DNA of 64,000 nt, taken from positions 52,509,169-52,573,168 of the forward strand of contig OX485806.1 of the NCBI GenBank assembly GCA_950295325.1. The letters run 5' to 3'. The translations under genes and the position numbers were made by a program. The notes under the pieces were generated by a model. The model had not been told where the DNA came from and did no database searches. It saw only the letters and a list, made by a program, of their open reading frames with translations. This document shows, one piece after another, positions 3,222 through 64,000 of this stretch (position 1 is its first letter; every line of letters starts with the position of its first letter). Source of the DNA: Polytrichum commune (Eukaryota > Streptophyta > Polytrichopsida > Polytrichales > Polytrichaceae).

Positions 3222-3227
3222 GGACAA

Positions 3228-3680
3228 AGAGAGGGACGAATAATAGAAAAATCCAAAAAAAGAAAACGAGGCACGGCTACCAAAGAATTGTAAACCCTAA
3301 ACGTTGAACAGTGGTACTATAAAGGTAAGAGAAGGTCGGTGAAGGGTCATTTTGTGAGTGAAGTAAAGGGATGCCCAGATAGTAGAGAACATGAAAGAGA
3401 GGAAGAAAGGGGAACTGGAACGCACACATGAAGGAACCAGACCAAAATACAGTCTCCACAATCGATCCAAGAAAGAAGTGTAAGAAGAGAAAGGGAGGGA
3501 CGAATTTCAGCAATTAGAAACAGAGGAGACGGAGAGAACTAAAAAAAGAAGGAAAAAACGTGCATAGAAGGAAGAGGGACCCCATCAGACTGGCAGAATA
3601 CGTGTACAGTGGACAAGGGAGGGTTGAATTTGCACTCGATAGACGAAGAAGGAGAGGACAGTGGTTCTCAAGCACCATCT
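3228..3680. promoter_or_regulatory. shared 5' region between divergent genes
   Basis: These roughly 450 bases separate the start of the transposase-like gene (minus) from the first candidate ATG of the ParB-like gene (plus). A plus-strand TATA-like word (CTATAAAG, about 3318-3325) and a telo-box-like AAACCCTAA (3292-3300) are visible. The head-to-head layout suggests a bidirectional promoter. Transcription start sites are not determined and the calls are pattern-based only. Confidence 0.35.
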
Positions 3681-5290: not shown

Positions 5291-7080
5291 TGTAGGGATC
5301 CCCATCCATGGATCTCATTCTATCGGAGGAGCCCCCAATAGAGGACCATACTGTTCCATTGGAGGTTCCTGTGGTATGAAATGGGGCATTGCTTCATCTC
5401 TTTTGTCAATAGATGTTTCATTTATTCGAGTTCCCTTCTTCTTTGTTCTTGAAACATCGCCTACGGTTCTTTGTGTTTTAAATAATTTTGGCCGCTGTCT
5501 AATATTTTGGTGGTTACCCTTGTAGAATGATGCACCGGTTGCAACCGACTATTTGCCTCCTCTTGATGAGTCCAACCCAGAGGAGACTGAGCTCTTGATT
5601 CGGAGATCGCAAAAAAAAGACTCTAATGTTGTGATTCATCGGGTTCGAATGAAACCTCTTCATAAGTCGCGTTTCTCTATCCCTTTGTACCGCTTGCGAT
5701 GTCTTCCACTTGTTTGTCCCATCAACGAGGTTGATGTCGCTCGGTTGGAAAATGAATTCATCATGAGTTACCGTGACGGTGATCGAGCCTTGTATGTCTC
5801 TCCCTACAACAACCTCAATGAGGTACTCAATGTCTCCAATGACATCCACAATTCTTGGAGTTCATTATGGCAAGCGGCCAATGAGGAGTTCGACGCCATG
5901 CTCCAAAATGACCATGACCTTGCTCACCTTTCTGGCAAGATGTTTTACGTGTGGTGGGGGGGGGAACCACCGTTTGTCGGCTTGGTGAAAGTACATTAAT
6001 AAACATCATTCGTTGGATAAAGATTGGCATATCTTTGTTGACTGTATTGTCGTGGATCCAAGAAATTGCACCGCTGTCTTCTTGAATGCCATGAATGAAA
6101 TCAATTGGTAAGTTTAGGTTTTTTTCCCTTGTTTCTTTTCCTTTTACGTTTTCCTTTTATGTTTCATTGTTTTTTGGACCCTCATTACTTTGTTTTCTAG
6201 GTCCATGAAGCACGATCATGTTAAAGACAACCTCCCTGCCAAATAGCTTTGCATTCGTACATTTGGAAAAATGAAGCTTGAGGATTTCAAGGACCTCATT
6301 TCGGTTGACGACTATAAGATGTACGAGGCTAAGATGGAGAAGAGTCATATTTGGTATCCCCTCTTATTGGACGTCTTCGTGAAGTTCTTATACAAGGTAA
6401 TATTTCTCCTCGCTCTAGTTTTTTCCTTTCTCATGTTTTGTGCATTTATCCTTATACAAATTTTTGTTTGATTTAGAAAGAGATCTCCAATTCGGCAGAT
6501 ACTGCTGCACGGTTATATCGTGAGGCCACTCCCAAGGCTCTTAGATCTGCTCTTGGGATTTGGGATGCTATGACAAAAGCCCATGATAGATTGATCAAAA
6601 TTATTCGATCTCGGAGCTTTGAAAAGTTTATCTCCGTCGCCTACAAGGACAAGGACAATGACTTCTTTCAAGAGGTACTCTTCAATTTTTGTTTGTTTCC
6701 ACCTTCATGTTTTCCTACTTGTGCTTTATGTATATTCCCTTACATTACACTATTCATTTTTGCATATTGACCGTCATTTCTCCACCTTCCTTGTCCCGGA
6801 TATGACTATTGAGAAACGGCAAAAGGTGGCCACTACACATGTGGATGTTTTCTTTAAGGCTAGATGGCTTCGGTGGTGGAATTCCCCCGCCGAGGTCAAC
6901 ACCAAAAACAAATTCCTCTCTTCTCTTCATCTTCGCGAAAAAACCCTCGATGATTGGCTTCACAAAGCTTCTTTTTGGGCACAGGTGCTCCAATACCTTA
7001 TACTTTTTAATTTGTTCTCTTTCACTCTTTGTCATCTCTAACTGTACGTTTGTTGAGGGTAACATTGCCTCATTTCAACC

Positions 7081-7430
7081 TCAATGGCATTAGGACTACA
7101 TTTTGACCTCAAGGTTGTAAAGATTGTAAGGGTAGATAGGCTCAACTTGGACGAAGTATTTTTTTGATATGTTGCATAAATTGGGTATGCACATGACCTC
7201 GACCCTCTTGGATCCAAGAGAGTCTTCGTTCATAACAATAGGACTAGATTTTGACTTCATGGTTGGGAAGGTTTGATGTATAGATAGGTTCAATTTCAAT
7301 AGACTAGTTTGGTTGATAGTGTGAGAATAGGGCATTAAAACCAGATTTTGGCCTCAAGGTTGTGAAAATTATATGTGTATATAGGGTGAACTTGTTGTGG
7401 ACTAGTTCGGTTGATAGTGTCGGGTAGGAC
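7081..7430 (+). repeat. left part of a second 150-bp satellite array, interrupted by an LTR-like insertion
   Basis: Diverged satellite units of the same family as in the first intron; one palindrome has its GGATCC at 7210-7215, with both CpG sites changed (TTGGATCCAA). The array is cut at 7430 by the element starting at 7431 and resumes at 9301. It lies in the enlarged intron between the sixth and seventh exons of copy A. Confidence 0.8.
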
Positions 7431-7562
7431 TGTGAGGCCAAACCTACCACCCTTAACCGTCCTAGTCCGTGTAATAGGTTTGGAGATCACATGTGTAACA
7501 TAACAATTTGTGGTAACATGGGATGTACGTTCTATCTTGATGAGTTTCTACCTTAATTAAAA

Positions 7563-7751
7563 TCATGACATTTTATTAGTGTGAACCTCGTGCATGGACA
7601 CATCCTTGGCTTTTTCCAGAGTCCACCCCACTGCCTTTGCCACGCATGCCTTCAATGATTTCCCCCTTGTAACTTTGGTTCTGGCTGTCGATTCTTCACT
7701 GGTGCATGACACCTCGCTGAGGCTATGATGTGTTGATTCGATGAGGCACAT
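7563..7751 (-). CDS. short conserved antisense reading frame in LTR-like element (62 codons)
   Basis: The last 34 codons align without gaps to a frame in the related element at 46110-46274, including the stop codon. The best-conserved stretch is CVAKAVGWTLEKAK here against CVAKAAGWTLEKAK there. Most nucleotide differences in that stretch are synonymous, which suggests past protein-level selection. An AATAAA word overlaps the end of the frame. The start codon is uncertain because N-terminal similarity fades. I recognise no family. It could be the tail of a spliced element-encoded protein if the element is read on the minus strand. Confidence 0.4.
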   Translation of the reverse strand: MCLIESTHHSLSEVSCTSEESTARTKVTRGKSLKACVAKAVGWTLEKAKDVSMHEVHTNKMS

Positions 7752-8599
7752 AAGTTTTAATACAAGTGTTGAAAAACACTTATATAACTTAACATTATCT
7801 CCTCTTCCACAAGTCCCTCACAAATCCTTCCCAACTTCATCTCATAATGCAACCACTAAACCAACTAGCCTAACCCTCTAGCCTAATTAATTAGTCTAAT
7901 TAACCATCCTCACTAACTAGTAGTAACTTAATTGTCGATCTAGCTTAGACTCGGAAGTGCACAACTAGTTGGAACTAGATTCCTCCTTAACCCATTCGCT
8001 AAATCTAACTGGCTCTACTTAACCCAGCCGCTAGGCCTAACTAGCCTCCCTCTTCAACCCAGCCGCTAAGCCTAACTGCCTCTCTCTTCAACCCAGCCGC
8101 TAAGCCTAACTGCCTCCAACTTTAAACCAGCAACTAAGTCCGACTGCCTCCAACTTCAAACCAGCAGCTAAGCCAACTGCCTCCAACTTCAAACCAGCAA
8201 CTAAGCTGACTACCTCCAACTTCAAACCAGCAGCTAGCCTAAGTGGCCTCCACCTTAAAGCCTACAAGGTTGAACGCTTTAAATCTAACATGAATCTAGA
8301 TGCTACAATTCTAAATGTCATAATTCTAAACACTATAAATTTAAATGATATAAGTCTAAATTCTATAAGTTGAACACAACGAGCTAAGCTCTAAATGCCT
8401 CAAACCAAAGACTATTCCTAACAAGTGTCAACTAACTTCAAGGCTAATTAGTCTTGGTTCTTCATCTTGAGACCTTGCACACGCACGTGCTCCTTTCTTG
8501 TTTCCCACACACCCACACTCATAACACGTGGGGTGCCAAGGAGCACAAAGGAAAGAGGGAGAGGGAGAAGGGAGAGTGAAGATTATACAGTGAGATGAA

Positions 8600-9040
8600 A
8601 GGCAGTAGGTGAGCACCCCCAAGACTCAAGATAAACCTTTTGATCCTTTCCTATTTTGTAGGTTCTCATCCTATCCTTTAAGCCTTCAAGGGAGTAGGTG
8701 AGCACCCCCAAGGCTCAAGATAAACCTTTTGATCCTTTCCTATTTTGTAGGCTCTCATCCTATCCTTTAAGCCTTCAAGGGAGTAGGTGAGCACCCCCAA
8801 GGCTCAAGATAAACCTTTTGATCATTTCCTATTTTATAGGCTCTCATCCTATCCTTTAAGCCTTCAAGGGAGTAGGTGAGCACCCCTAAGGCTCAAGATA
8901 AACCTTTTGATCCTTTCCTATTTTGTAGGCTCTCATCCTATCCTTTAAGCCTTCAAGGGAGTAGGTGAGCACCCCTAAGGCTCAAGATAAACCTTTTGAT
9001 CATTTCCTACTTTGTAGGCTCTCATCCTATCATTTAAGCC
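8600..9040 (+). repeat. 89-bp minisatellite, five copies
   Basis: The words GGTGAGCACCCC, AAACCTTTTGATC and CTCTCATCCTATC recur about every 89-90 bases, with starts near 8606, 8696, 8785, 8874 and 8963. Copies are nearly identical, so the expansion is recent. It lies wholly inside the LTR-like element 7431-9300 and has no equivalent that I can see in the relative at 45981. Confidence 0.85.
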
Positions 9041-9300
9041 TTCAACTCTTAAACCATTAACATAGATCCTAATTCAAACATTTAATTCAAAGAGCCACCA
9101 TTGGTTCACCACACACTATGCTCACCTAACTAAGGAACTTTCTTCACACCGCTAAACTTCTAATCAACCTAAGGTCTAAACATAACTTCACTCAAGCCTC
9201 ACTCTTTTTATATTTTGTGAATAATCATAAAACATCAAAACATAACTTCTAATAGTTTCAAAGGGTTAAGAGCACATGTGGGCACCATTTTGGGCTCACA

Positions 9301-10130
9301 AGGACATTAAGACCATATTTTGACTTCAAGGTTGGGTACATTGAGTATGTAGTTAGGGTCATGTTGTGTGGATTAGTTCGGTTGTGATGAAATAGTTGGA
9401 TATGCACTAGAGAACGACCCTCTCGGATCCGAGAGGGTCTTTAGTTGAGTGTATTTAGACCAGATTTGATCTCCAAGGTTGGGTACATCAAGTGTATACA
9501 TAGGTTCAACTTGGGTGGCCTAGTTGGGTGTGTTGTTGAAATAGTTTGGTGTGCTCTAGAGGACGACCTTCTCGGATCCGAGAGGGTCTTTTGTTGAGGT
9601 TGTTAAGACTAGATTTTGACTTCAAGGTTGGGTACATGGAGTGTGTATATAGGTTCAACTTGGGTGGCCTAGTTGGGTTGTGTTGTTGAAATAGCTTGGT
9701 GTGCTCTAGAGGACGACCCTCTCGGATCCAAGAGGGTCTTTTGTTGAGTGTGTTAAGACCAAATTTTGACTTCAAGGTTGGGTACATTGAGTGTGTAAAT
9801 AGGTTCAACTTGGGTGGCCTAGTTGGGTTGTGATGTTGAAATAGTCGGGTGTGCACTAGAGAACGACCCTCCCGGATCCGAGAGGGTCTTTAGTTGAGTG
9901 TATTTAGACCAGATTTGGTCTCCAAGGTTAGGTACATCGAGTGTGTACATAGGTTCAACTTGGGTGGCCTAGTTGGGTTGTGTTGTTGAAATAGTTTGGT
10001 GTGCTCTAGAGGACGACCCTCTCAGATCCAAGGGGGTCTTTTGTTGAGGGCATGAGGACCAGATTTTGCCTTCTATGTTGGGTTCTTTGTATGTTTAGTT
10101 AGGCATTACGACCAGATTTTGACCAGATTT
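9301..10130 (+). repeat. right part of the second 150-bp satellite array
   Basis: Five units have their central hexamers at 9425, 9574, 9724, 9874 and 10024, a spacing of 149-150 bp. Palindromes range from perfect (CTCTCGGATCCGAGAG at 9420) to decayed (CTCAGATCCAAGG at 10021). The array runs almost to the seventh exon of copy A at 10157. Confidence 0.88.
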
Positions 10131-10842
10131 CTTACTTCATGTTTGTCTCATCTTAGTTGGAGAAAGATGTTGAGGGTGAGATCGCCTCATTTGAAAATGA
10201 ATGCTCCATCGACATCGACTGGGTTTCTACGAAAGATTTTTTGCAACCTGCTCATTTTGTTGAGCATTGGAGGCTCATTTTTTGGGATAAGGCTTTTCAG
10301 GTGTATTCTTATGACAAGGGAGTCTTGAAATTCACCAAAGGGCTCGATCTCATGGAGTTCGAGGAAGGTCCCATAGCTATCAAGCGCGTTGCTTACTGGA
10401 AATCATATTTGTTTTTCTTTTGTCCTTCATATCTTCGTTTGTTTTCATTTTTTCAACTCCATTTTTTTGTTCTCATGTTCTCCAATGTGTAGGTACATTC
10501 ACCGTGAACTTGTCGTGAAGAATGCTCTTCCTTCTTTGTCCTTGCCATCATTCCTTGATGATTGGATCGATGACAACTCAAATCTTTGTGTGTACACGTC
10601 CGTGCAACTTGCAAAATTTCCACGCGTGCATTTGGTGGCTGGTGGTTGGTACTTGGATTGTTCTCGTGGATTCGTTCCCGACGTAGAAGAACCCCTCAAC
10701 AACAACCTCGCTTCCTCTGCCCCTGAGATAATTGAATTGAAGGAAGAGCCGGAAGAAGATGAGAATCCGGTTCCTCCCACCAATGACAAAAAGGTTGCAC
10801 CGGTGAAGGCCAAAGGCAAAAGCAAGAGGGTGGCCTTCAGCT

Positions 10843-11289
10843 AAGGGAAAATATCTACTTGGCCCCAACTCTTGGAAAAGAGGCAAAAGGTTTCATGACG
10901 GTGGGGTAGGAGCCTTGCCAAATGTCCTAGAGGCCTATATGGGTGAGGCCCGCCCGAGGTCGAATGACACAACTTCTATGGACATTGGCTCAAAATGGGG
11001 TACAATTGCTTAGTATGGTTTGGGTTGTTATAGTGTTGCTCTAGCAACATGATGATCAAATAAAGATTGGACTTCCATGGATGGAAGTCCACATCTTATC
11101 ATTGGTTACCGATTAAGCGGTGAGTCCCGAATGCAAGTGAAGGAGGGTTGGTCCCTTTCCTATGAATAAAGGAGGTCCGCGTTATGGGAGCTAACCAATA
11201 CAATGGGGGATTGCGAGGGTGAACACTTGTGCTTCTTGCTAGAATTGAATAATGACCAAAATAATTAAGGGGTGCTAGCAAGGGTTGCG
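10843..11289 (+). repeat. dispersed repeat of about 450 bp, shared with 59046-59510
   Basis: It starts at the stop codon of copy A (CAGCTAAGGG) and is clearly similar along its length to 59046-59510 in the copy B locus. Shared words include TCTACTTGGCCCCAACTCTT, GACGGTGGGGTAGG, GGTTACCGATTAAG and GCTAGCAAGGGTTGCG. A near-perfect 22-bp palindrome lies at 11069-11090 and is perfect in the other copy. No coding frame is conserved. Its boundary coincides with the truncation of copy A, so it may have replaced the missing methyltransferase end. Confidence 0.75.
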
Positions 11290-44002: not shown

Positions 44003-44957
44003 ATTTACGAACGCGCGTTCGTGACCTCACTAACTTCTCCATGTGCATCCGGCGGCCTTCGAGATCCCTCATCTGAAAGCACCATCATGAATATCGGTTT
44101 TGTAGGTCAAGGTACCATGTTGACTTAGGAACCTGTGTGATATAATATCACAAGAGAACACTTGTCCATACGCACAAAAGTAGTAAATTTGCAGATGATG
44201 CCTGAATGAACTACAACAACATTTTGTACACTGAGCCCCTTCATATTGTGAATTTGATTCTATTGACTTTTGCGTACCTATACATTCACGAACGGACGTT
44301 CGTTAATGGGTGCGACCCCGTGTTCACATCCTTCACGGACGAGCGTCCGTTAATGATGACCATCGCCTCCCTCAGCAACGAACGCTCGTTCGTAAGTATG
44401 CGATGAGCATATTTTTCTTGCTATTCTGTGTTTGTATATAACTGCCATACTGATGTGTATGAATGAAGATGTGTTGCTGGATGCGTAGACAATAATGACA
44501 TGTATTTACGAATGCACGTTCGTAAATTACTGACCATCAGGTACCAATAGATACGGGTCAAATAAGTCTCTATGATCCTCGAAGGCATATTTACGAACGC
44601 ACGTTCGTAAATGACTGTCATGGATTATGTGCATGTGACTAACCATATGAGTAGCTCAATCCAGAACATGCTCTCATGTGAGATTTACGAACGTCCGTTC
44701 GTAAATTACCGACCATCAGGTACCAATAGATACGGGTCAAATAAGTCTCTATGATCCTCGAAGGCATATTTACGAACGCACGTTCGTAAATGACTGTCAT
44801 TGATTATGTGCATGTGACTAACCATATGAGTAGCTCAATCCAGAACATGCTCTCATGTGGGATTTACGAACGCACGTTCGTAAATCCTTGCAATGTACAG
44901 GTCCGAATCATTTGTCTAAACCTGAAGCTCCTCATCTTTACGAACGTGCGTTTGTAA
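44003..44957 (+). repeat. array of ten 24-bp palindromes, core ACGAACG-NN-CGTTCGT
   Basis: Copies lie at about 44003, 44286, 44334, 44376, 44503, 44589, 44683, 44768, 44862 and 44937. The best 20-bp core is TTACGAACGCACGTTCGTAA; the two central bases vary (CA, TC, GC, CG). From 44503 to 44861 they sit in two copies of a unit of about 180 bp, each holding two palindromes. Outside that unit the flanks are unrelated while the palindromes persist, which suggests selection or targeted insertion rather than simple unit duplication. Another copy is alone at 52086. The array is upstream of the transposase-like gene at 40421-43451. Confidence 0.9.
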
Positions 44958-51620: not shown

Positions 51621-52085
51621 GTGAGTTTTCTGTACATGGGAGTATGCTAGGGTTTTTATATAAGCTCTGAAGGCTTGAGGTCTGCATTAGAGAGGTAACT
51701 GAGTGCATTTCAAAGGCAATTGAGTGTGCAGTTGTGAGGATTTCTGGGATTTTCAGAAAGAGAAGAAGCAGGGTTTAAAGTGTGCAGCATTTCAATGTAA
51801 TTAGCTATCCTTTCCAACTCCTCTCACATTCTGAAAATGTTGCTTCTTGAATTCAATTTGTTTTGTTACATGCAATGTGAATTATCACTTTCTTCTTCAT
51901 TATTCATTCTCAATCTCATTATGCATCTCAATTGCGTTCTCATTCAAGATTTGCATCATTCTGACCAAGATTTGCAGGCACGGCTGCAAGTAGAGTTGCT
52001 AATAAATGAGTCATATACATATCTAGACGTATTCTTATATATATGAATACGTATATGTACGGACAGGGGATCCCAAAACCATCAC

Positions 52086-52109
52086 ATTTACGAACGCTCG
52101 TTCGTAAAT
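52086..52109 (+). repeat. isolated 24-bp ACGAACG palindrome
   Basis: TTTACGAACGCTCGTTCGTAAA is the inner 22 bp here; the core ACGAACG, two variable bases and CGTTCGT are as in the array at 44003-44957. The surrounding sequence is unrelated to that array. It lies about 1.2 kb beyond the 3' end of copy B. Confidence 0.85.
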
Positions 52110-52507
52110 GGACAGGGGAAAGTTAGTATGCGAGCGGAGAGCGGAGAGCGGAAAGCGGAGAGCGAAGACCGAAGAGCGGAGAACTCAATTTGAGACATGA
52201 AATGAGAGAGAAATTGCACCTATAACCGCGGGATTGAGGGAAAAATGTTGAACTATTTTTAGAAACTTTGGAGAGTTATGGACTCTATAACCGTGGAAAT
52301 AAAGTAACATTTCCCTATTCATAAAGTTAATAGATTTTTGAAACATAGAAATATTAAAATAAAATACAAAATTAGGGCTTACATCACTATGACGTCACAA
52401 TTATAATTACCAAAATGGTGTACTATATTTTATATTACGGTAAATTAAATAATATTTACTATTTGAACGTGACACGAAGGAGGTTGGCGAAAAAAATTCT
52501 CCACATA

Positions 52508-52945
52508 CAGTCCACCCTCTATTACTGTTACACCTATAAGTGTTAACCATTTCCAAACGTTCACTTTATTCTACTCCCTACATATTGCACACTATAAATG
52601 TTAAACCTGTTAATTGTTAACAAAACGGTGTTCCCTTCTTTGTAAATTTGACTCTATAAATGTTAACGACTGAAATACATTCATAATTCACCCATGATTT
52701 GTAAACTTGATATTGAATAAAGTTTTGATTGGGTTTGCAATTTTGTGTATGATATTCTCTCACAATTACTCTTCACAATTGCTTATAGTTAGGACATGTT
52801 AAGATTTGCATATTGTTCAAAGAAGTAATTTTATAATTGTTAACTGTTAACACCTTTATACATGTAAAGTTCGATCCACTCCCGAGGGTTAACATTTATA
52901 GAGGGTGAACATTTGAGGGTGAACATTATAGATGGTGAACAAAAA
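52508..52945. mobile_element. possible MITE with CACCCTCTAT inverted ends
   Basis: CCACCCTCTATTACTGTTAC near the left edge is mirrored on the right by GTTAACATTTATAGAGGGTG. The words CTATAAATGTTAAC (left half, several copies) and GTTAACATTTATAG (right half) face each other. No exact target duplication was found, so the edges are approximate. Confidence 0.4.
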
Positions 52946-53284
52946 TGAAGAATGCAATGCGGGTAGTATGAATTGGAGTGTGTTGGGTGGTGTGCAACAA
53001 GTATTATTGAATACTTATGATTCAAGGAAACAAGGAGGAGGTGTGTGAGGCAACAACTTTTTATTGGAGTGGGTGGATGCTACATTGTTTTGTGACTAGC
53101 GGTTAAGATTGTGAGAAGATGGTGGACTAAATTCTCTTTGGAGTATGACGACCACCAAGTGAAGCGTGATTTGAGAACAACGAAAAGATGCATTCAATGA
53201 GATAATTGGAATATTGAAATCCACACAACACTTTATAAATCCAAATACCGATAAATCAAACCAACAAATCAATCAAACCCAAAA

Positions 53285-56200
53285 TCAATCAACCATGAGG
53301 TCGTCACTACTAGATTCCCTACTTCCAAAGATACTACCCTCATGGCCGCCCTCATCTGAAGTGGAATCTAAGCTATGGCACTCATTATCCACCTCCGCAG
53401 AATGCTCGAAGAAGTCTAAGGCACGGGGGTCATAACGTGGAGACGGGGAACTAGCTTCGGTAGGAGAAGGTTGTGCCGCTAGTACCATCGCCATATCATG
53501 GGCATAGATAGGCAATGTGAATCCCATGGTGGGAGTACCCAACACATCCGCTCCAACGCCAAGTCTGAAAAAAAACACGATAAATGTAAGAAAGAGGATG
53601 GAAAGTGTAAAAGCTGAATGGACAAAGAAAATAAGCGAAGAAGGTCATCATACTCACTTACTGCGAGGGCTCTGGCCTCGATCGCTTCAAGGCCGGCGGC
53701 CTCTTCTGCGTGCCTTGTGAAGCCTGCGTGGAAGCAACAACAATGGATGGAGCCTTCACCGTAGGCTGAACACTCTTAAGTGGCTTAAGGACACGGTTGA
53801 AGGTGTCCTCGTCCTCCTCAAGAGCAACGATATGGCGCCCAAGCTGCCTGCATGCATGGATAGAAGTCCCTGTTGCGGAGGAAAGGTTAGCAAAGGAAAA
53901 AAAAACAAACTTAGAAATTGAAAACTAGGATATGTTGGCAAGTGAATTAGGACATACCAACGCCTGCATTAATGTCCACCACAACCTGTCCAATGTCCGT
54001 AGTGGCCATGATCAAGGAGGACATGAAAGAAATATCTTTCTCCCGGGGACCACGCCAAGCTTTGGAGCCGTCCATGAGAGGAGTTGCGGTATAATTCATA
54101 ATCGCATCATCCATGTCGAGCTCAATGCCAAGAGCCTTGAGCTCATTGGCATCGCGAAGGCGAAATGACGAGTGCCGGGGCCGCTTATCAAGGTCAGATC
54201 CAATTGTTTTGGTGGCACGAACAAGTAGTACAACTTGGAAGAGGTTGGTGGTCTTGTCCTTATGCTTAGCTGAATGTAGGCGAAGACGGTTGACTCCCAG
54301 CCACTCCTTGAAGATCGTGAACCCAAAAGCAGCGAAGTGGTCTTCAATGCTCTCCCTGAAATCACCATTGTCATCTGGATGAAAGAGGAGGAGAGCTCCA
54401 TCGTCATGCAGGATCTCGTCCGCGAAATCGAAGAGTTCACCAATAAAATCGGAATCCAATGCATTCCAGGAAGGCACACTATAGGAAGGATCGGAGACAT
54501 TGGGTACCGGCAGGTTCTCCGGGAGGTCGGCAATGACAAGATCAGCCATGCCCACATCTGACCTCGCAACGCCTAGAGCTCTCCGCGGATAGGAGGGTGG
54601 AAGAGAAAGAATGAAGTTGGAAACATCCTGAAAATGACGACGTTGATGAAGAATAGAGGCATTCAAGATGCATTCTGAAACAACTAGAGGACGCCTAGCA
54701 GATGAAAGAACGGGCGGAGGAGGCGGCCTGGAAAGAGTAGGAACTTGACTAAGAGTTGCAGTGGATGCAACTGCCGCCTCAGGTGAAGCAGGGGGATCAT
54801 CCTCCACAGTCTTCAGCTTCCTCGCGCGCTTCTTTAGTGAAGACTCGTCTTGAGTCGCACGCTTCCTCCTCTTGGACTTCTGAGTGTTGGGCTCATCGAG
54901 AGTCGCAACAACCTCATCCGCCTCCGGAAGCTGACTCTCTAGAAGAACAACCTCATCGCTTTGAGAAGGTGGCTCTCCACCGGAGAGCCGAATCTTCAAG
55001 GCCGCCTCCTCATCCGGCTGCCACGTCCTCTTACACTCCAAGTACCAGCAACACTCGCGGAGATGCGGGAGGGAGAAGTTGCGCTTTTGAGCCGGGGAAA
55101 AAATGAAGGTGGGCGAAGAGGAATCCGACCATGCATCCAGAAATGGAGGAAGCTTCTTCAAAGCCTTCTTCTTGAAAAGCTCGTGCTTGATGTACCTTCA
55201 CAACCAAGGAGTGAGGCCAATAAGCAACTTAGAAAACAACTAGTTTGATATAAATGAGAACAAAAGATGGCCCAACTAACTTACCGGAAAATTAAGCGCT
55301 TGACAATGTTGTCAGCGCCTTTGACATCCTTCCACCACGTCCCCTTTCCATAGATATCTGACCCTGAGAAGTGACCAATGAACGCCTTATCCCAAAGGCA
55401 AATTCGCCACTTCTCCAAGTAATCCGGCAACGAATCAACTTCCACGTCTCCGTCAAGCCCACCCAATGCACTTAGTATATCCGGTAACTCCTTGACCGCA
55501 GCATCCTCTAGCTGTGAAGGAATTCAAGGCGAACATGAGAATTGGCACAAAATGAAGAATTGAAAGGGAAGCAAAGAAAATAGGATAGACGTACCCCTGC
55601 CCAGAACGCTGCTTTATTGAGCCAAGATTTCAAGTTGTCCTCGCTTGCAGGACTTTTGGGAAACCGGATAGCTTCACGATTGAAACTTCCACTGTTCCAC
55701 CACTTAAGCCAACGGGCTTTATACTCTGGCTCGACAGCGGCAGTGGCAATAAGTTGCAATTTCTCCAATGTCATCTCAATCTTTTGAGAATGGTGGGCGC
55801 TATAATGCCTAGTAATCTGAAACAAATGCAATCAAAATAGAAGGCCAAGTAAATTTTAGAATGTTTACTGAAAAAATGCTGCAAAGAATGCAAGCAATAC
55901 GAAAAGCATAATTCCAAATTGGATGACAAGGAAATTACCTCATCTAGGAACTGTTTTCCAAGGGCAGGGTTTGCGATCGACTGTTGTTTGTTGAACTTGT
56001 GCCCAAGTTCCTCAGACGTCTTCTTAATTACAGCGTCCAATACATCACTCAACCCCTTCCCTGACTGCTCATCTAGAGGCACTTCCTCCTTGAAGATTTG
56101 GGCCGCCTCATCTACCGCATCGGCTATCTCTTGCTGGACATGTATTCTAAATTGTTAGACCATGACTAAAAGTAATGAATGCGAAGTAGGAGCTTGATGA

Positions 56201-57228
56201 ATTTGGAGTGACTTACATTGAAAATGAAGGACACCATAAGATCCTGGGTCAGCGGGTACCAAGGGCTCTTGGGGCCTCTGCTCTTGCACGCTTGGAATTG
56301 CTCCTCGGTCAACAATGGCTGGTAGTAGCTAAGATCATACGAACCGTATTTTTGGATGCGGTGTAGAGTGTGAACAAGGCTAGTCTTAACGTGCGCAGTC
56401 TGGTTAGCCCTGTTGCGGTTGAGATAAATGGCATTAGATGAAAATAAAAAAATGAAGGAAAAAATGTTCAAAAAAATAACAAACTTACTTGTTTATGTCG
56501 TGCATTGCATTAAGGACGTCTCCACGCCCACCCGTTGTGTCGAGGATGACACATTCTGGGCAACCATGTTTCTCATACCAAAGTGCATCGTCCTTGTGAT
56601 CTGTTTCAATACACTCCTTCCACGCTAGCAAGCGGTGGTTACCATCATACACAAAGAACATGCATCCACTAAGGCTCATCAAGTACTTATCCGAGCGCAA
56701 AAAAAACTCAAACTTATCATTTTCTGCATTCCATAGCTCTCCCCATTCACGCTTGTCTTTGGCAGAAATGAATCGATTCTCTCCACTCTCATTTGCAGTA
56801 GACACATAAAAAGTGGCAGACCCAGCTCGGTATCCAAATTGAAATGCTGCCATGAGCTTTGTAACGTCGCTGCGGAGAGTTGGCCGAACCAATGGCATGT
56901 GAATCAACCTGCAGAGAGGGATTCTCATAGAGGACTTTTCGACCGGTTGTATCCTCATGCCCTCAACAACTGAAAAACTATCTTTTTTTAAATTGTGGCG
57001 AATCCGATACTCCATTACACGAACACCCACATCCGATTCTGGTGGTGAGCCGGTGAGTGTCATCCCGGGTGTCTGCGGTTCGCCACTACCAGGTGTAAGC
57101 CCAGTAGGTTCAGCACATGACAACGGAGACCCTTGCTCCATATGCTCCTCTACACTAAGGGATGACCCAGCACCAATGCGAACCCCAACATCCAATGACT
57201 CTCCATCCGCAACCATCTCAACAATCTC
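53285..57228 (-). CDS. ParB/sulfiredoxin-like plus beta-class amino-methyltransferase-like protein (copy B, intact)
   Basis: Eight exons (57228-56489, 56409-56217, 56133-55939, 55816-55595, 55511-55285, 55195-53958, 53869-53662, 53564-53285) have GT-AG introns and matching phases and join to 1101 codons with no stop before TGA 53285-53287. Residues counted from 57228: ParB-like motif FFVYDGNHRLLAW with DGNHR at 195-199; a central part of unknown fold (KARWLKWWNS); two basic NLS-like clusters (KSKRRKR near 632, KKRARKLK near 647); methyltransferase motif IV position DLVIADLPE (DLPE 749-752); NRLRLHSAK; then the SAM-site-like DINAGVG at 933-939, split by an intron, followed by GRHIVALEED; and an acidic Ser-rich tail. 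The order IV before I is that of beta-class DNA amino-methyltransferases. Known members have (D/N/S)PP(Y/F/W); DLPE departs from this, so activity is uncertain. Copy A (3681-10844) is a paralogue. An upstream first exon is missing from this span; see 61599-61898. Confidence 0.8.
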
Positions 57229-57299
57229 CTGAGAATCAATTACTTACCAACATAAGAACCAATAGAATGAACAATGCCACCCAATATTTACATGATAAT

Positions 57300-58440
57300 A
57301 CAACCAAACTCACCTCAGCCTCATTGGGAGCTTTCGGCCATCCACAAAATCCACCTACCTCTAACCTTAGCCTTCTTGTGAGCTTTCAGCTACCCCCAAA
57401 ATCCACCCGAAATCAGATTATATGCTAGCAAATATGCCATGTTTCTTTCAAATATAATCTGACCTCTAAATCCCCCCCTAGCTATCAATTCGAACCACAC
57501 TAAGAGCATCTAAACATGACTAAACCCTCACTAACGTGCACAATCCCCCAACTAATACCTGCCCGAATGAGCATCTGGCCTACCAAAAAGTCCAACAAAA
57601 ATCAAATTTTGGGTGCACATTTCTGCCCCTAGGGGACTGTCGGATCCGACAGTGCCCCTGGGCTTCCATATCATACCTCACAAGCTAAAGCCAGCCACAA
57701 ATATTCAGGTGCTAACAAACACATTTCAGACCCCTACCTCTAACCTTAGCCTCATTGGGAGCTTTCGGCCACCCACATAATCTACCATAATTCACATAAT
57801 ATGCTAGCAAATCTGCCCTGTTTCTCTCCACTATAATCTGACCTCTAGTTTGTGCCCCTCCTAGCTATCAAATCGAACCACATTAAGAGCATCCCAAACC
57901 CTTAAAGGCCAAACAAATTATAGAGCACCTCTAAATCCCCCCCTAGCTATCAATTCGAACCACACTAAGAGCATCTAAACATGACTAAACCCTCACTAAC
58001 GTGCATTAACCCCCAACTAATACCTGTCCAAATGAGCATCTGGCCTACCAAAAAGTCCAATAAAAATAAAAAATTCGGGTGCACATTTCTGCCCCAAGGG
58101 GACTGTCGGATCCGACAATGCCCCTAGCTCTCACCTCTAACCTCACAAGGACCATCCAGCCACCCTAAACCTCCACCCCCAGCTCTCACCCTAAACCTCC
58201 CGAAAATCAAAAGCGAGGTGCCCATATCTGTCAGTAGGGGTCTGTCGGATCCGACAGTGCCCCTAGCTCTCACCTCTAACCTCACAAGGACCATCCAGCC
58301 ACCCTAAACCTCCACCCCCCAGCTCTCACCCTAAACATCCCGAAAATAAAAAGCGAGGTGCCCATATCTGCCAATAGGAGTAGGGGTCTGTCGGATCCGA
58401 CAGTGCCCTTAACGCTCACCTCTAACCTTACTAAGGACGA
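57300..58440 (+). repeat. irregular satellite with TCGGATCCGA palindromes, about 430-465-bp higher-order unit
   Basis: Two long copies (57316 and 57746 onward) share GGGAGCTTTCGGCCA and CTAGCTATCAATTCGAACC-like text. Palindromes with core ACTGTCGGATCCGACAGT lie at about 57636, 58101, 58241 and 58387. Each is preceded by a CCCCTAGGGG-type word and followed by GCCCCTAG. The array is 5' of the first mapped exon of copy B and is presumably inside its first intron. Confidence 0.85.
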
Positions 58441-58465
58441 TGAAAAAGAAAGCAGAAGAAACGCA

Positions 58466-58572
58466 CCTTCACCTTCACCTTCACCTTCACCTTCACCTTC
58501 ACCTTCACCTTCACCTTCACCTTCACCTTCTCCTTCTCCTTCTCCTTCTCCTTCTCCTTCTCCTTCTCCTTC
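58466..58572 (+). repeat. (CACCTT)n/(CTCCTT)n hexanucleotide microsatellite
   Basis: About ten CACCTT units pass into about eight CTCCTT units, giving open Ser-Pro or Leu-His frames that I regard as spurious. It follows a satellite unit at the phrase GAAAAAGAAAGCAGAAGAA, the same phrase that precedes the microsatellite at 60983. Confidence 0.95.
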
Positions 58573-59045
58573 GTCTTTTTCTTTCTTTAAGGATGCCTAG
58601 TGGGTTTGAAGCAAGGGTTATGGGTTCGCCGCTCACATACTTCGCCGCTCCGCTCACACAGACTTCGCAGCCTAAAGACGCCGCTCACCCTCGGAGACTA
58701 GGAGGCACAAGACTAAGGCCATGAGCTATGCGTAGCTCATGGCGTGGTGATTCTAGAAAGCTGAAGAACACCTCAATCGGAGGTGTGAGCTAGGAGTTAT
58801 GGCCATTTGAGTGGGGCGCTGTCGCGGGACAGCGCCCTGGTCGAGCATTGCCTGGGAGTCATTCCCGGGACTGCCAAGGTTCAAACAGGCATAACGTCGT
58901 CAATACTTGCATGAATGGGTCAAGTGAGGGGTCCATCGGCATCTACGTGAAGCGTAGATGAAGATGGAGTGGTTGGTTGTTGGAATCAAAAATCATACAA
59001 GAAAGTTATGGTGGTCTGAAGCTGTTGGGGGCTTCTAGGCCCAGC
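58573..59045. other. gene-free spacer between microsatellite and shared repeat
   Basis: GC-richer unique sequence containing short hairpins, for example CATGAGCTATGCGTAGCTCATG (58720-58741). No coding frame recognised. Confidence 0.45.
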
Positions 59046-59510
59046 AGCTAAAGGAAAATGTCTACTTGGCCCCAACTCTTGGTAGAGAGACAACAGGTTG
59101 GTTGACGGTGGGGTAGGGGCCCCTCGTAGAGTCCTAGAGGCTTATATGGCTGAGGTGGTGTGGCCTCACCCACCCGAGGCCGAACGGCACGGCCTCATTG
59201 GGCTTTGGCCCATTGTGAGGCCATAGTTGCATAGTATGGTTCGGGTTGTTGTAGTGTTGCTCCGGCAACGCGATGATCAACATGGGATTGGACTTCCATC
59301 GATGGAAGTCCACATTTGGGAATGGGTTACCGATTAAGGGGTGAGTCCCGAAAGCAAAGTAGGAAGGTTGGTTCCCCTCCTATGAACTAACCGGTCCGGG
59401 TAGGAGGAGCTAACCATTAGCTTGGCGGTATGCGAAGGGTTAGTACTCGTAACCTATGCTAGAAATGCGAATTGGCAAGATTTTTAAGGGGACTAGCAAG
59501 GGTTGCGACA
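59046..59510 (+). repeat. dispersed repeat of about 465 bp, shared with 10843-11289
   Basis: It matches the block that truncates copy A throughout its length. A perfect 22-bp palindrome lies at 59290-59311 (inner 20 bp GACTTCCATCGATGGAAGTC), and a GTTGCTCCGGCAAC hairpin lies just before it. The right end (CTAGCAAGGGTTGCG) joins the satellite directly. Its presence at both ParB-methyltransferase loci may be chance or may mark it as part of the element. Confidence 0.75.
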
Positions 59511-59512
59511 AT

Positions 59513-60955
59513 CTAGCCACCCTAGAAAGCCACCAAAAATCAGATAATAACCTTGCATTTCTGCCCCAGCTCTCACCTCTAACCTCCCGAAAATAAAAAA
59601 CGAGGTGCCCATATCTGCCCCTAGGGGTCTATCGGATCCGACAGTGCCCTTAGCTCTAACTTCTAACCTCACTAAGGACCATCCAGCCACACTAGGCTGC
59701 CACCAAAAATCAGATAATAACCTTACATTTCTGCCCCAACTCTCACCTTGACCCTCCCGAAAATCAAAACCGAGGTGCTCATGTCTGCCCCTAGGGGTCT
59801 GTCGGATCCGACAGTACCCCTAGCTCTAACTTCTAACCTCACTAAGGACCATCCAACCACACTAGGCTGCCACCAAAAATCAGAGAATAACCTCACATTT
59901 CTGCCCCCAGCTTTCACCTTGAACCTCCCGAAAATCAAAAGCGAGGTGTCCATATCTGCCCCTAGGGGTCTGTCGGATCCGACAGTGCCCCTAGCTCTAA
60001 CTTCTAACTTCACTAAGGACCATCCAGCCACACTAGGCTGCACCAAAAATCAGATAATAACCTTACATTTCTGCCCCAACTCTCACCTTGAACCTCCCGA
60101 AAATCAAAAGCGATGTGCCCTTATCTGCCCCTAGGGGTCTGTCGGATCCGACAGTGCCCCTAGCTCAAACTTCTAACCTCACTAAGGACCATCCAACCAC
60201 CCTAGAAAGCCATCAAAAATCAGATAATAACCTCGCATTTCTGCCCCTAGCTCTCACCTCTAACCTCCCGAAAATAAAAAGCGAGGTGCCCATATCTGCC
60301 CTTAGGGGTCTGTCGGATCCGACAGTGCCCCTAGTTCTAACTTCTAACTTCACTAAGGACTATCCAACCACCCTAGGAAGCCATCAAAAATCAGATAATA
60401 ACCTCGCATTTCTGCCCCTAGCTCTCACCTCTAACCTCCTGAAAATCAAAAGCGAGGTGCCCATATCTGCCCCTAGGGGTCTGTCAGATCCAACAATGCC
60501 CTAGCTCTAACTTCTAACCTCACTAAAGACTATCCAGCCACACTAGGAAACCACCAAAAATCAGATAATAACCTTACATTTCTGCCCCCAGCTCTCACCT
60601 TGAACCTCCCGAAAATCAAAAGCGAGGTGTCCATATCTGCCCCTAGGGGTCTGTCGGATCCGACAGTGCCCCTAGCTCAAACTTCTAACCTCACTAAGGA
60701 CCATCCAACCACCCTAGAAAGCCATCAAAAATCAGATAATAACCTCGCATTTCTGCCCCTAGCTCTCACCTCTAACCTCCCGAAAATAAAAAGCGAGGTG
60801 CGCATATCTGCCCCTAGGGGTCTGTCGGATCCGACAGTGCCCTTAGCTCTAACTTCTAACCTCACTAAGGACCATCCACCATCCTAGGAAGCCACCAAAA
60901 ATCAGATAATAACCTTACATTTCTGCCCCAGCTCTCACCTCTAACCTCACTAAGG
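59513..60955 (+). repeat. about 170-bp satellite array with TCGGATCCGA palindromes, 5' of copy B
   Basis: Eight regular units: TCGGATCCGA or its variant begins at 59632, 59802, 59973, 60142, 60313, about 60484, 60654 and 60825, a spacing of 169-171 bp. Core palindrome ACTGTCGGATCCGACAGT, flanked by CCCCTAGGGG and GCCCCTAG. One unit (60484) has lost both CpG sites (TCAGATCCAA). A unit length near 171 keeps one frame open and creates long spurious repeats of translated protein on both strands. Confidence 0.92.
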
Positions 60956-60982
60956 ATGCTGAAAAAGAAAGCTGAAGAATGA

Positions 60983-61040
60983 AAGAAACGAAACGAAACG
61001 AACGAACGAACGAACCGAACCGAACCGCACCGCACCGCCC
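60983..61040 (+). repeat. evolving (ACGAA)/(CCGAA)/(CCGCA) microsatellite
   Basis: The motif drifts in order from GAAAC through GAAC and CGAAC to CCGAAC and CCGCAC within 60 bases. It begins after GAAAAAGAAAGCTGAAGAA, the same satellite phrase that precedes the hexanucleotide repeat at 58466. Confidence 0.9.
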
Positions 61041-61486
61041 GCTTCAACTTCCACTTCGAACCTCACTATGACCATCCAGCCACCGAAATTCATATGATCA
61101 CCTCTCATCTCTGGCCCCTAAGCTATCACATCGAACCACACTAAGAGCATCCAGCCACCCTACAAAGCCACCAAAATTTCTGCCGCCCCAGCTCTCACCT
61201 TGAACCTTACTAAGGATCATCCAGCTCTCACCTCATACCTCACTAAGGAGCCCTTTGCCAACCCTAAACCAGCCATCTAAAGTCATTTGCGAGGTTCAAA
61301 TTTCATCCCCCAGGGCTCTCACCTCAAACCTCTCCACGGGGCGACCACTGCCCTTCCCTCGAGTCACTCCCCCGCTCCAAATCGTGGCTGCAACCCTGCA
61401 AGCCTAGTTCAGAGGTCCGTTGTAATGCGGGGAACGATGGTAGGCTACTGCCGCGGCAGTCTTGTTCCCTTCCACTTGTGACGGTC
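61041..61486. other. degenerate satellite, then unique sequence
   Basis: Fragments of the copy B satellite (CACTAAGGACCATCCAGC-like phrases) continue to about 61250 without further TCGGATCCGA palindromes. After that the sequence is GC-richer, with an ACTGCCGCGGCAGT palindrome (61448-61461). No gene recognised. Confidence 0.5.
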
Positions 61487-61598
61487 TCATTGTGATGTCG
61501 AGTGCTTCAACGGGCCCACACTTGTTGCCTTCTCTAGCTCACGAATACAACCCCTAATTTCTAGTGCATATATGTTAACATCGACTTGAGGTTCATAC

Positions 61599-61898
61599 CT
61601 GGGTCTCGCAAATTCTCGATAGATCATGTGATATCTCCACTTGTCTGGTCGTACCCACTCCAGCTTCCTTGCTAGCAATGTCTTCACCACTGTGAGTCTG
61701 GCTTCTCCGTATACGAGACCTTGACCGTGTGCGGTCTGGGGAGAATTCCAATGCCTTGACTGTGCTGTTTAAGCTATCATATCGTTGTTTCGGTTGTCTC
61801 ATCCTAGATGCCCTTAATTGCTTCCTGCTTGAGAAAAATGCCTTCCTCCTCCTCTTCGCCTTTGGTTTCACTAACTCTATCGGCGAGGACCCTGTCAT
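61599..61898 (-). CDS. candidate first exon of copy B (NLS-like N-terminus)
   Basis: An ATG-initiated frame of 100 codons ends exactly in phase 0 at a good donor (CAG, then GTATGA at 61598). The first mapped exon of copy B begins in phase 0 at 57228, so the two join without a stop, across a 4.37-kb intron filled by the palindromic satellite. The peptide is hydrophilic and has a KPKAKRRRK nuclear-localisation-like cluster near its start. Copy A has a comparable layout (hydrophilic first exon, then satellite-filled intron), but the sequences are not similar. The same region is open in another frame (61487-61690, with KLEWVRPDKWRYHMIYREF), so the assignment is tentative. Confidence 0.35.
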
Positions 61899-62502
61899 GT
61901 AACTGAACCGGCTTCACAAATTCTACACTTCCCTCCTATGTGAACATCACTCTATCAATGTATGTGTCTCGCCTGTATTACATCCACACTAATATTCCAT
62001 CCCATAATCTTTTTCACATAATGTCGATATGTTTTGATTACAGTCAAGTTGCTATAAACATATAAGGAATCATAAAAATGAACATTAAAAGAATGGACAC
62101 GGATGTCTAATAACATTTATAGAAATAATTCAGAAGTAATCTAAAAATGAAGAATATCATGTTTTATAAAAATAAAAATGATAGTACAAATGATAATACA
62201 TAATTCAAACTAAACTAATTAGAAGAAATATTCTGTATAGCCATACCTTGACGATACTCTTCCAACTAAACTAACTTATTCTAGCTTCTCCTTAAAGGTT
62301 AATGCTCTTCCCTTGCCCATTTCAATCTTCCACTCCAAAAGAAACACTTTACTTTAGGGTGTCCCTTATATCCACTAAATGGTTCACGTGGTCTCTGGTG
62401 TATTTATAAGTACGTCACTCGGCATCCAGCCTCATGTTTGTTATTAATATATCTAATTTGGATTGGCATATGATCATGACTAACTTAAGTAACTGCTCCA
62501 CT
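61899..62502. other. no recognisable gene
   Basis: AT-rich sequence that could hold the 5' region of copy B. No repeat, no palindrome and no open frame of note. Confidence 0.4.
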
Positions 62503-62580
62503 GCATTTTCAATTTTAATTCAAATTGACCCTTACCTTACACACCTTTCTGGCAAGATGTTCTACGTTTGGGAGGGAAAC
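62503..62580 (+). pseudogene. ParB-like exon fragment (third copy)
   Basis: Twenty-six codons on the plus strand, ending LTHLSGKMFYVWEGN, align with the ParB-like exon of copy A (LAHLSGKMFYVW) and of copy B (LMSLSGCMFFVYDGN). Similarity stops right after EGN, before the His-Arg of the motif. The sequence after it is T-rich and intron-like. It is about 670 bp upstream of the transposase N-terminus at 63253, on the same strand. Confidence 0.6.
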
Positions 62581-63252
62581 TTTGTTAATTCCATTTGTCT
62601 CGTATCTTTCGTGTTGTGCCTTCTTCCTTCCCATTCTACTTGTCTTCAATGCCTTAGTGCTACTGAAATACAACTTCCCTCTTTTTTTCCTTCTCTTGAT
62701 ATGATTTTGCATGTCAGGTATCACCCTTCCAGAGCATGTCTACTCCAACATTCCCAAAATCCTCCCTTGAACCGAACACATCTTACGGCACTCGAGAGTC
62801 CATAACTTATGATTCTAAAACAAAGGAGTTGAGTATCACGAGATCTTATACAAGTGTTCGCACGAGGGACAGTCCTATATTTAATGCCCAATTGGGTCTT
62901 TGTCATTCGTTCTATTCCTGTCTTGAAACGTCAAGTCTATCTCTAGACCTAGTTATGATACATGCTTTAAGTCGGCGCCAAATAATCAAATTTAATTGCT
63001 TGTCGAGTAGAATGTCTACCATGACTTGCACGCTGTACTTATATATATCGTGACAGCGTTACCCATCACTTTTAGACCCAAGGGCGGCTGTTTCCATATT
63101 GAAAATATTAGTGAAGCTTTCATTCAGAGTTCATCCATCATGTGGATCATGTCGTTGTCGTTGGCAGCCCATTTGTAATATATAGATGGCCCACAATGTT
63201 TAGAATCCTCTTTCATATTTCCATCTTGCCGCAAGGGCTCATTCCCCTTATC
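62581..63252. other. upstream region of the right transposase copy
   Basis: T-rich after the ParB-like fragment, then mixed sequence. A TATATATCGTGA stretch lies at 63041-63052. No further exon of the ParB-like family was recognised on either strand. Confidence 0.4.
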
Positions 63253-64000
63253 ATGGCTCATATTCCTGCTATTGGAGACTTGGGGTTGGCTGTCCTCTAT
63301 GCAGATGGTGTGAGAGTCCCAGTTACCTTTCGGATGCAAGAGGACGGTCTAGCTTACGTGACGTCCCAACGTCTGAGTATTCGGTTCGGCTTCAGAGAGG
63401 ATACTATTATTGTTGACGAGGATATTTTTGATGTTGTCACGTCAGAACTTACATACACCCTTGGTCGGGTATCGCAGCGAGATGAGAACAATAACTTGTT
63501 TTGGAGTCTTCCTCCAGGTAGTTACCGAGTGTATGGCCTCACTGATTCTCAGATGGCTGCGTCTACTGAGATCCTCACTCCTCGTAATTCCTCTACGTGC
63601 ACCATTCAAACTCCTTTGCCACGTGATGTGATGGTCAAGCTCGAGCCCGGTCTCGACACGCCAATTGTAGAAAACGTTAGAGTTCAGTCTGTAATTACAC
63701 TTTCTTCAGATGAAGAGGGCAGTCCCACCAAGCCCCCGCCTCAGGTTATAGTTAGTGGGAATGCTCCTAAAGTATATCCTTTGTCCCAAGAGACTGTTAG
63801 CATATTTCCATTGCTAAAACAACTTGCAGGAAGGCCGGGAAAAAAAATATTCTAAAAAAATTAGATTACTCAGTGATTAGACACGAGAGAGTAGAGTACC
63901 TTCCTGCTGAGTTCGATGGTGTCGTCATATTTGAGTTGCCACCCGCTAGTGACACGGCCGCACGGTCACAGGCCAAGTCAATGCAGGGAATGGACAAGCG
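63253..64000 (+). pseudogene. MULE-like transposase N-terminus, right copy, cut by window edge
   Basis: From ATG 63253 the protein aligns with residues 1-260 of the left copy. Matches include GVRVPV against GIRIPL, YRVYGL against YMVYGL, VKLEPG against VKIEPG, VITLSSDEEG against VIHLSDSSDG, then after a frame shift NILKKLDY against NILKKLDY and AKSMQGMDK against AKSMDDMDK at the window edge. A run of eight A (63840-63847) is one base out of frame, producing TAA at 63853-63855; otherwise the frame is open. An upstream ATG at 63142 is in frame, but 63253 agrees with the left copy. The Cys-rich and catalytic parts would lie beyond 64000. Confidence 0.75.

Follow-up and report, generated by a model that had tools for sequence, protein, structure and literature searches.

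A MULE-like transposon with a methyltransferase-like accessory gene and family-specific palindrome arrays

The 64,000-nucleotide stretch of DNA analyzed here (the window, part of contig C4) contains a copy, termed copy B, of a 14.8–17 kb DNA transposon whose copies have recently increased in number in the genome of a eukaryote, probably a plant. The element carries two divergent genes. One is transposase-like, while the other, referred to as the accessory gene, encodes a predicted protein with a conserved N-terminal module and a permuted aminomethyltransferase-like domain. We regard it as almost certain that the accessory gene is an integral gene of the transposon. Tandem repeats with long palindromes lie between the two genes and, by analogy with the VANC proteins of Arabidopsis transposons, the accessory protein of this MULE-like (Mutator-like) element might act on such motif arrays, a proposal that we consider evenly balanced between being right and being wrong.

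Copy B is bounded by defined ends and a target site duplication

The features that define copy B are the following.

52115..64000, minus strand: MULE-like transposon copy B, extending beyond the window to C4:52576674 (15,392 bp in total), with the TAAATGGACA duplication on both sides; one end is common to three other copies, and the far end and the duplication were read
52105..52114, no strand: target site duplication TAAATGGACA adjoining the element, from a comparison of both flanks of copy B
52115..52180, no strand: terminal inverted repeat GGGGAAAGTTAGTATGCGAGCGG, followed by GAGCGGA-type subterminal repeats
53285..57216, minus strand: accessory gene, 8 exons and 1096 codons, from the joined open reading frame (ORF) and subfamily comparison
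57597..60844, no strand: tandem repeats, mostly of ~171-bp units, that carry palindrome CTGTCGGATCCGACAG and separate the two divergent genes
63115..63852, plus strand: first frame of the divergent transposase-like gene, shorter than that of copy c7

The right end (...CATACTAACTTTCCCC, in the direction of the gene) and the left end (GGACGAGACTTG...) are each exactly the same among near-identical copies. Their flanks differ, and each of the four copies with both ends read is bordered by a perfect 10-bp duplication (GTTTGGTAGT, AGGTCCAAGG, and TTGTCATCAT for three copies and TAAATGGACA for the window copy). These four elements are about 17.0, 16.4, 14.8, and 15.4 kb long. The terminal inverted repeats are imperfect, with the outer 70 bases aligning with several mismatches and gaps. 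Target site duplications of the Mutator superfamily are ~8–11 bp long; the 10-bp duplications found here fall within this range, and the presence of terminal inverted repeats also fits the superfamily. A stretch from another family (F3, locus L060) includes sequence that by eye resembles an element end.

The second gene is divergent from the accessory gene and has open frames of 762 and 548 amino acids in copy c7. The first frame is interrupted in copies c4 and B, and the second is shorter in c1. The gene contains a CQFH (CxxH) motif and a SWIM-like CTC...CKH (CxC...CxH) end; Pfam matched SWIM alone in its frames (E=0.12), and the acidic residues were assigned by eye. According to excerpts of PMC5225508, the CxxH motif is common to MULE and hAT transposases, and duplications of 8–9 bp are found for one MULE. 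We consider that the transposase probably belongs to the Mutator superfamily and place the element there tentatively. A sequence-only reading of the window had proposed that a gene with a bacterial ParB–methyltransferase fusion as its putative ancestor was captured by a eukaryotic mobile element or host and multiplied; with ends, target duplications, a second gene, and many relatives in hand, the case for a mobile element is stronger than it had been put.

The accessory gene is conserved across subfamilies

Joining eight exons of copy B on the minus strand in phase gave 1096 codons plus a stop. All predicted introns are of the GT...AG type; exon boundaries were picked by hand from the hint of the earlier reading, and the coordinate of the last exon was derived from the codon count.

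57216-56489, 56409-56217, 56133-55939, 55816-55595, 55511-55285, 55195-53958, 53869-53662, 53564-53285, minus strand: accessory gene exons
56488..56965, minus strand: N-terminal conserved module with a DGNHRLLAW motif, residues ~85–243, ParB-like by motif only, from the family alignment
53717..54555, minus strand: permuted aminomethyltransferase-like domain, residues ~736–985, in exons 6 and 7, with motif IV slot DLPEN and motif I VDINAGVGTS, from profile matches

The sequence-only reading had given eight in-phase exons and 1101 codons. The exons do join, and its greater length probably includes codons upstream of the ATG. The motifs that it had placed at 195, 749, and 933 lie 4–7 residues away, with DGNHR at 191, the motif IV slot ADLPEN at 744, and the motif I region VVVDINAGVG at 926.

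All eight exons are present in order in three subfamily copies (L043, L044, and L045), and the ratio of nonsynonymous to synonymous substitution rates (dN/dS) between B and these copies is 0.235, 0.233, and 0.207, respectively (1092–1094 codons). Thus, the gene model is more than a chance arrangement of frames. The three copies are 89–97% identical to B in exons and 82–94% in introns. Splice sites of the seven predicted introns are mostly kept, with some mapped junctions differing, such as an L043 intron ending in CAT. Stops occur in the shown part of the N-terminal exon of L043 and of the B-type copy L023, as would be expected for single copies of a transposon.

Other pairs gave dN/dS values of 0.21–0.39, the youngest copies excepted; the latter pairs differ by 1, 3, and 7 changes and are uninformative, the 7-change pair giving 1.7. 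Between B and paralogue A, a decayed relative in the window, saturation of synonymous sites was observed. A comparison among paralogues had been suggested by the earlier reading, and values of 0.21–0.24 against three subfamilies correspond to purifying selection. Judged from these alignments, the accessory gene is under purifying selection across subfamilies.

The C-terminal domain resembles aminomethyltransferases with an altered catalytic motif

The C-terminal part of the protein matched Pfam N6_N4_Mtase at E=2.2e-5 and 25 bits, just below the cut-off of 26.7. Further matches were found to DNA methyltransferases in the Protein Data Bank (PDB; E ~1e-4), to NCBIfam CcrM (1.3e-6, yet far below the cut-off of that model), and to phage DNA methyltransferases in PHROGs (1e-7). 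A nine-row family profile compared with seven phage methyltransferases gave a probability of 93 and, as the value for a single comparison, E=2.5e-7 over columns 5–235, that is, the whole permuted domain. The similarity spans motifs IV to I in permuted order, as in beta-class-like N6/N4 aminomethyltransferases. Thus, the permuted amino-methyltransferase-like domain of bacterial type that had been claimed for this gene is borne out by these profile matches.

The alignment of the family and phage profiles puts the DLPEN slot opposite DPPY. The catalytic consensus of aminomethyltransferases is [DNS]PP[YFW], and it was found in none of the 12 rows examined. The slot reads DLPE or DIPE, and once DISE, in ten B-type rows, DVPD in family F2 (L059), and DIPE in family F3 (L060); it is therefore D[LIV]P[ED], with the single DISE, in 12 of 12 rows and never DPPY. 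The S-adenosylmethionine (SAM) motif I, VD[IV]NAGVGTS, is present in 9 of 10 B-type rows, the remaining one being gapped there, and both the glycine-rich motif and the following acidic residue are conserved. The two other families have DWQCG[TV]G in this region, a sequence of the D-x-x-x-G-x-G type. These alignments suggest that the methyltransferase fold is probably retained without the residues normally used for catalysis. Because the catalytic motif is altered in all 12 rows, a functional methyltransferase is doubtful, though the gene is conserved. A search of viral contigs with the methyltransferase alignment gave 41 pattern matches and 0 confirmed ones; as it starts from short peptide patterns, it may miss distant relatives.

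The N-terminal module is ParB-like by motif

The sequence-only reading had described a ParB/sulfiredoxin-like module joined to the methyltransferase-like domain. An ORF of at least 120 amino acids with [DEN]GNHRL, a GxxR-type motif after a strand, was present in 26 of the 32 loci scanned, and the module is conserved across 20 aligned rows, namely the window and 19 of these 26 loci. The rows were selected by the motif, so the invariance of GNHRL among them is partly by choice; the decayed copy L023 reads DDNHRL at this site. For ParB itself, Pfam and a PDB profile search gave no match to the module, a profile comparison with ten phage ParB sequences revealed no similarity, and a ParB model scored real family members no higher than shuffled sequences. 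A ParB-like PHROGs family (phrog_1033) matched the accessory protein only at E=0.28. Comparing the module with the phage methyltransferases as a cross pair gave a probability of 21 and E=0.001 (the other cross pair gave 0.8), so single-pair E-values of order 0.001 are noise in this setting. Because the ParB searches were negative, we label the module ParB-like by motif only. Of the two domain assignments that profile searches had been meant to check, the methyltransferase one was thus upheld and the ParB one was not. The N-terminal alignment gave 30 pattern matches in the viral contigs and 19 in the genome contigs, with 0 confirmed in a search whose short-peptide start may miss distant relatives.

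The three ParB_N matches in the genome sit on small contigs (C12 and C23), outside the elements seen. One 61-kb contig of the same assembly, C12, carries at L001 1468-2799 a phage-like 443-amino acid fusion of ParB and a DNA methyltransferase with DPPY; this contig is probably a phage or bacterial contaminant.

The accessory gene belongs to a large family that includes an older element in the window

Querying the genome with gene B, with 42 of 3528 candidates scored, returned matches to exon 6 on the seven large contigs, at least 40 of them long and a further 2 partial. An exon from paralogue A gave at least 150 matches (150 of 1089 candidates scored), and an exon of L075 also gave at least 150 (150 of 1280), 114 of which lack an internal stop as counted by hand. 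The relatives listed through the latter two exons overlap, and all counts are lower bounds. Of 30 retrieved loci, 19 gave gap-free alignments with the B coding sequence over residues 172–1096 at ≥97.7%, and 13 of the 19 are stop-free; the remaining 11, without a clean alignment over these residues, were left unscored for gaps and stops. A single captured host gene was rejected as an origin, given the many families and copies.

Both gene types occur again as a divergent pair at the left of the window; this pair is designated element A, whose ends were not found. The decayed paralogue and the further fragment that had been reported are both present, the latter as a weak match.

5556..10844, plus strand: decayed paralogue A of the accessory gene; the pieces matched within 5556-10763 on the plus strand are 25–57%, mostly ~38%, identical to B
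510..3296, minus strand: transposase-like gene in pieces, assigned to the older element A and 61% identical to the B type over 337 amino acids
3869..10178, no strand: 150-bp repeats containing palindrome GACCCTCTCGGATCCGAGAGGGTC, located within paralogue A and upstream of it
62506..62580, plus strand: short fragment like the N-terminal module of another family (KMFYVWEGN; E=0.021)

A 111-bp sequence, 83% identical between its two occurrences, is found at 10838-10948 in the paralogue A region and at 59045-59155 in the region of the element B array.

Palindrome arrays accompany the elements and differ between families

In 59 B-type units from four copies, chosen with up to 3 mismatches to CTGTCGGATCCGACAG, the central 16 bases are symmetric at 88–100%; the next two positions drop to 14% and 2%, and some positions farther outward are symmetric again. 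The 13 units of element A (GACCCTCTCGGATCCGAGAGGGTC) are 69–100% symmetric over 12 pairs, with selection across families allowing up to 3 or 4 mismatches. The stretches L028, L031, and L045 contain AAAGAGGCCTCGGATCCGAGGCCTCTTT, and the array cores found contain GGATCC. The arms of the palindromes differ between families yet remain symmetric, which suggests a dimeric DNA-binding protein.

The core TCGGATCCGA occurs at 4345 sites genome-wide as compared to 233 for the reversed control. Two arrays (C1:2252702-2257757 and C1:12941367-12941759) lie ~0.4 kb upstream of accessory genes from further families. The B-type word has 252 sites and its control 0, and 98 of 100 listed sites are, by reading, located ~15 kb or less upstream of a copy from the B family. 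For the A-type word, 85 sites were counted, of which 67 are on C4. Tested against 68 gene positions from an incomplete list, 33 of these 67 have such a position within 10 kb, while 1000 circular shifts gave a mean of 4.5 and never reached 33; the 18 sites elsewhere fell outside the test. Thus, family-specific motif arrays are found in noncoding parts of the elements, with a clear association for the B type and a partial one for the A type.

Both the A-type palindromes (67 of 85) and numerous gene copies of the A type cluster at C4 ~42–59 Mb, an interval that includes the window and is perhaps a non-recombining region. Repeats of 179 bp with a palindrome-like ATTTACGAACG..CGTTCGTAAAT occur in the window at 44504-44885 and ~52085-52109. 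One such palindrome immediately adjoins the insertion site of copy B, and CATTTACGAA is found again just past the other end of this copy.

Apart from these elements, the window has a DUF7869 gene at 40424-42064 (Pfam E=6.9e-40), perhaps another mobile-element type, and a remnant of a hAT family dimerisation domain at 25219-25635 (Pfam E=7.6e-8). An rbcL match on contig C8 and the presence of seven large contigs are what suggest a plant source. Partial rbcL matches outside contig C8 (C3:14137891-14138196 and C2:70106055-70106189) are perhaps plastid DNA in the nucleus.

A possible role of the accessory protein and its alternatives

We propose that the accessory protein could be the sequence-specific DNA-binding factor of its element. 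As a dimer, it would recognize the palindromes, both those of the intergenic arrays and those that some families have within their gene stretches. Once bound, it might shield the element promoters from host silencing or assist assembly of the transposition complex, with the methyltransferase-like domain having no enzymatic role and providing a scaffold that binds SAM or DNA. Since VANC acts on motif arrays, this protein is by analogy the natural candidate binder. That it acts on the palindrome arrays at all is, in our estimate, a matter of even chances, and an anti-silencing effect is possible, though we lean against it. Several observations weigh against the proposal. The symmetry figures are inflated, because units were chosen for their likeness to the palindrome; a B-family copy is missing near 2 of the 100 B-type sites listed, and 34 of the 67 A-type sites on C4 have no copy from the incomplete gene list within 10 kb. 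The core palindrome is absent from the 6-kb gene stretches of L059 and L060, the only parts searched there. The methyltransferase part is under weaker constraint than the rest in some pairs (dN/dS 0.17–0.46), the Pfam MULE model remained unmatched in the transposase-like frames with reporting up to E=1, and the protein that binds the palindromes could instead be the transposase or a factor of the host.

Alternatively, the arrays could be targets of the transposase, with the accessory protein performing a separate function, for example in nuclear import or target selection. Subterminal repeats do matter for the hAT-derived Kat1, as an abstract on that system describes, but in copy B the arrays are intergenic and kilobases away from either terminus, and we find this alternative somewhat unlikely. 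A true ParB/Srx domain, which would bind nucleotide, load on the palindromes as on parS, and aid synapsis or maintenance, is suggested by GNHRL in a conserved module, by an order of strands and helices that fits ParB by eye, and by the resemblance of the arrays to parS clusters. Given the motif-based choice of rows and the uniformly negative ParB comparisons described above, a ParB-like clamp seems unlikely to us. An active DNA amino-methyltransferase (6mA or 4mC) marking the DNA of its own element, for instance at GGATCC in the palindrome cores, would agree with the extent of the domain similarity, the conserved SAM motif, and the presence of that site in the cores; the altered catalytic slot in the B-type rows and both other families, together with a Pfam score below the gathering cut-off, makes it improbable. 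As MULEs frequently capture host genes (excerpts of PMC6446971), the accessory gene might also be a passenger acquired in Pack-MULE style with no role in the transposon life cycle. We deem this very improbable, since it adjoins a transposase-like gene in two families whose accessory proteins are ~38% identical, has at least 150 relatives, and is under purifying selection.

In its boldest form, our proposal of an array-binding accessory protein would describe a new plant transposon class with self-recognition. Here, a ParB-like, SAM-binding pseudo-methyltransferase would read element-specific palindrome arrays, load as a dimer or clamp, and keep the element transcribable, with arms and protein coevolving by family; we consider this form a long way short of probable. 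Nothing like the family was found in the literature listings searched, and an earlier description in a 2016 BioEssays review on eukaryotic adenine methylation is possible. The many families in one genome, with differing arms, make coevolution of protein and site directly testable. Moreover, a bacterial-type aminomethyltransferase fold, apparently made non-enzymatic, would be found inside a recently active eukaryotic transposon.

Comparison with known systems

The accessory protein resembles the phage and bacterial ParB–methyltransferase fusions (L001; Desulfofustis phage WBK39746.1; Bce_0392, excerpts of PMC5512222) in having a GxxR-type N-terminal module followed by a permuted aminomethyltransferase. 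It differs from them in the ~500 residues between the modules, the lack of detectable ParB sequence similarity, and the replacement of DPPY. A kept fold with a changed catalytic motif also characterizes METTL14, a catalytically altered methyltransferase subunit; the protein described here belongs to another family, would have another partner, and no active partner was identified for it.

As a transposase accompanied by an additional gene, the element is comparable to MuDR (mudrA/mudrB) and other MULEs with additional ORFs, as described in excerpts of PMC6446971. In contrast to MuDR, the additional gene is of another kind, and the terminal repeats are imperfect with short GAGCGGA repeats. The closest likeness in layout is to the Arabidopsis MULEs VANDAL21 and VANDAL6, which, according to excerpts of PMC5735166 and PMC10398659, combine a Mutator-type element with extra genes including the anti-silencing VANC and have, within introns and upstream of genes, tandem repeats of noncoding sequence with short family-specific motifs. 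The VANC targets in these excerpts are motif arrays that differ between families. Unlike the non-palindromic VANC21 motif (YAGTATTAY) given there, the motif here is a long palindrome, and unlike VANC, the accessory protein has a methyltransferase-like domain; the likeness described here is one of element layout. If our proposal is true, the element would represent a second, independent solution to the problem solved by VANC, namely how a transposon recognizes its own copies through a diverging DNA word.

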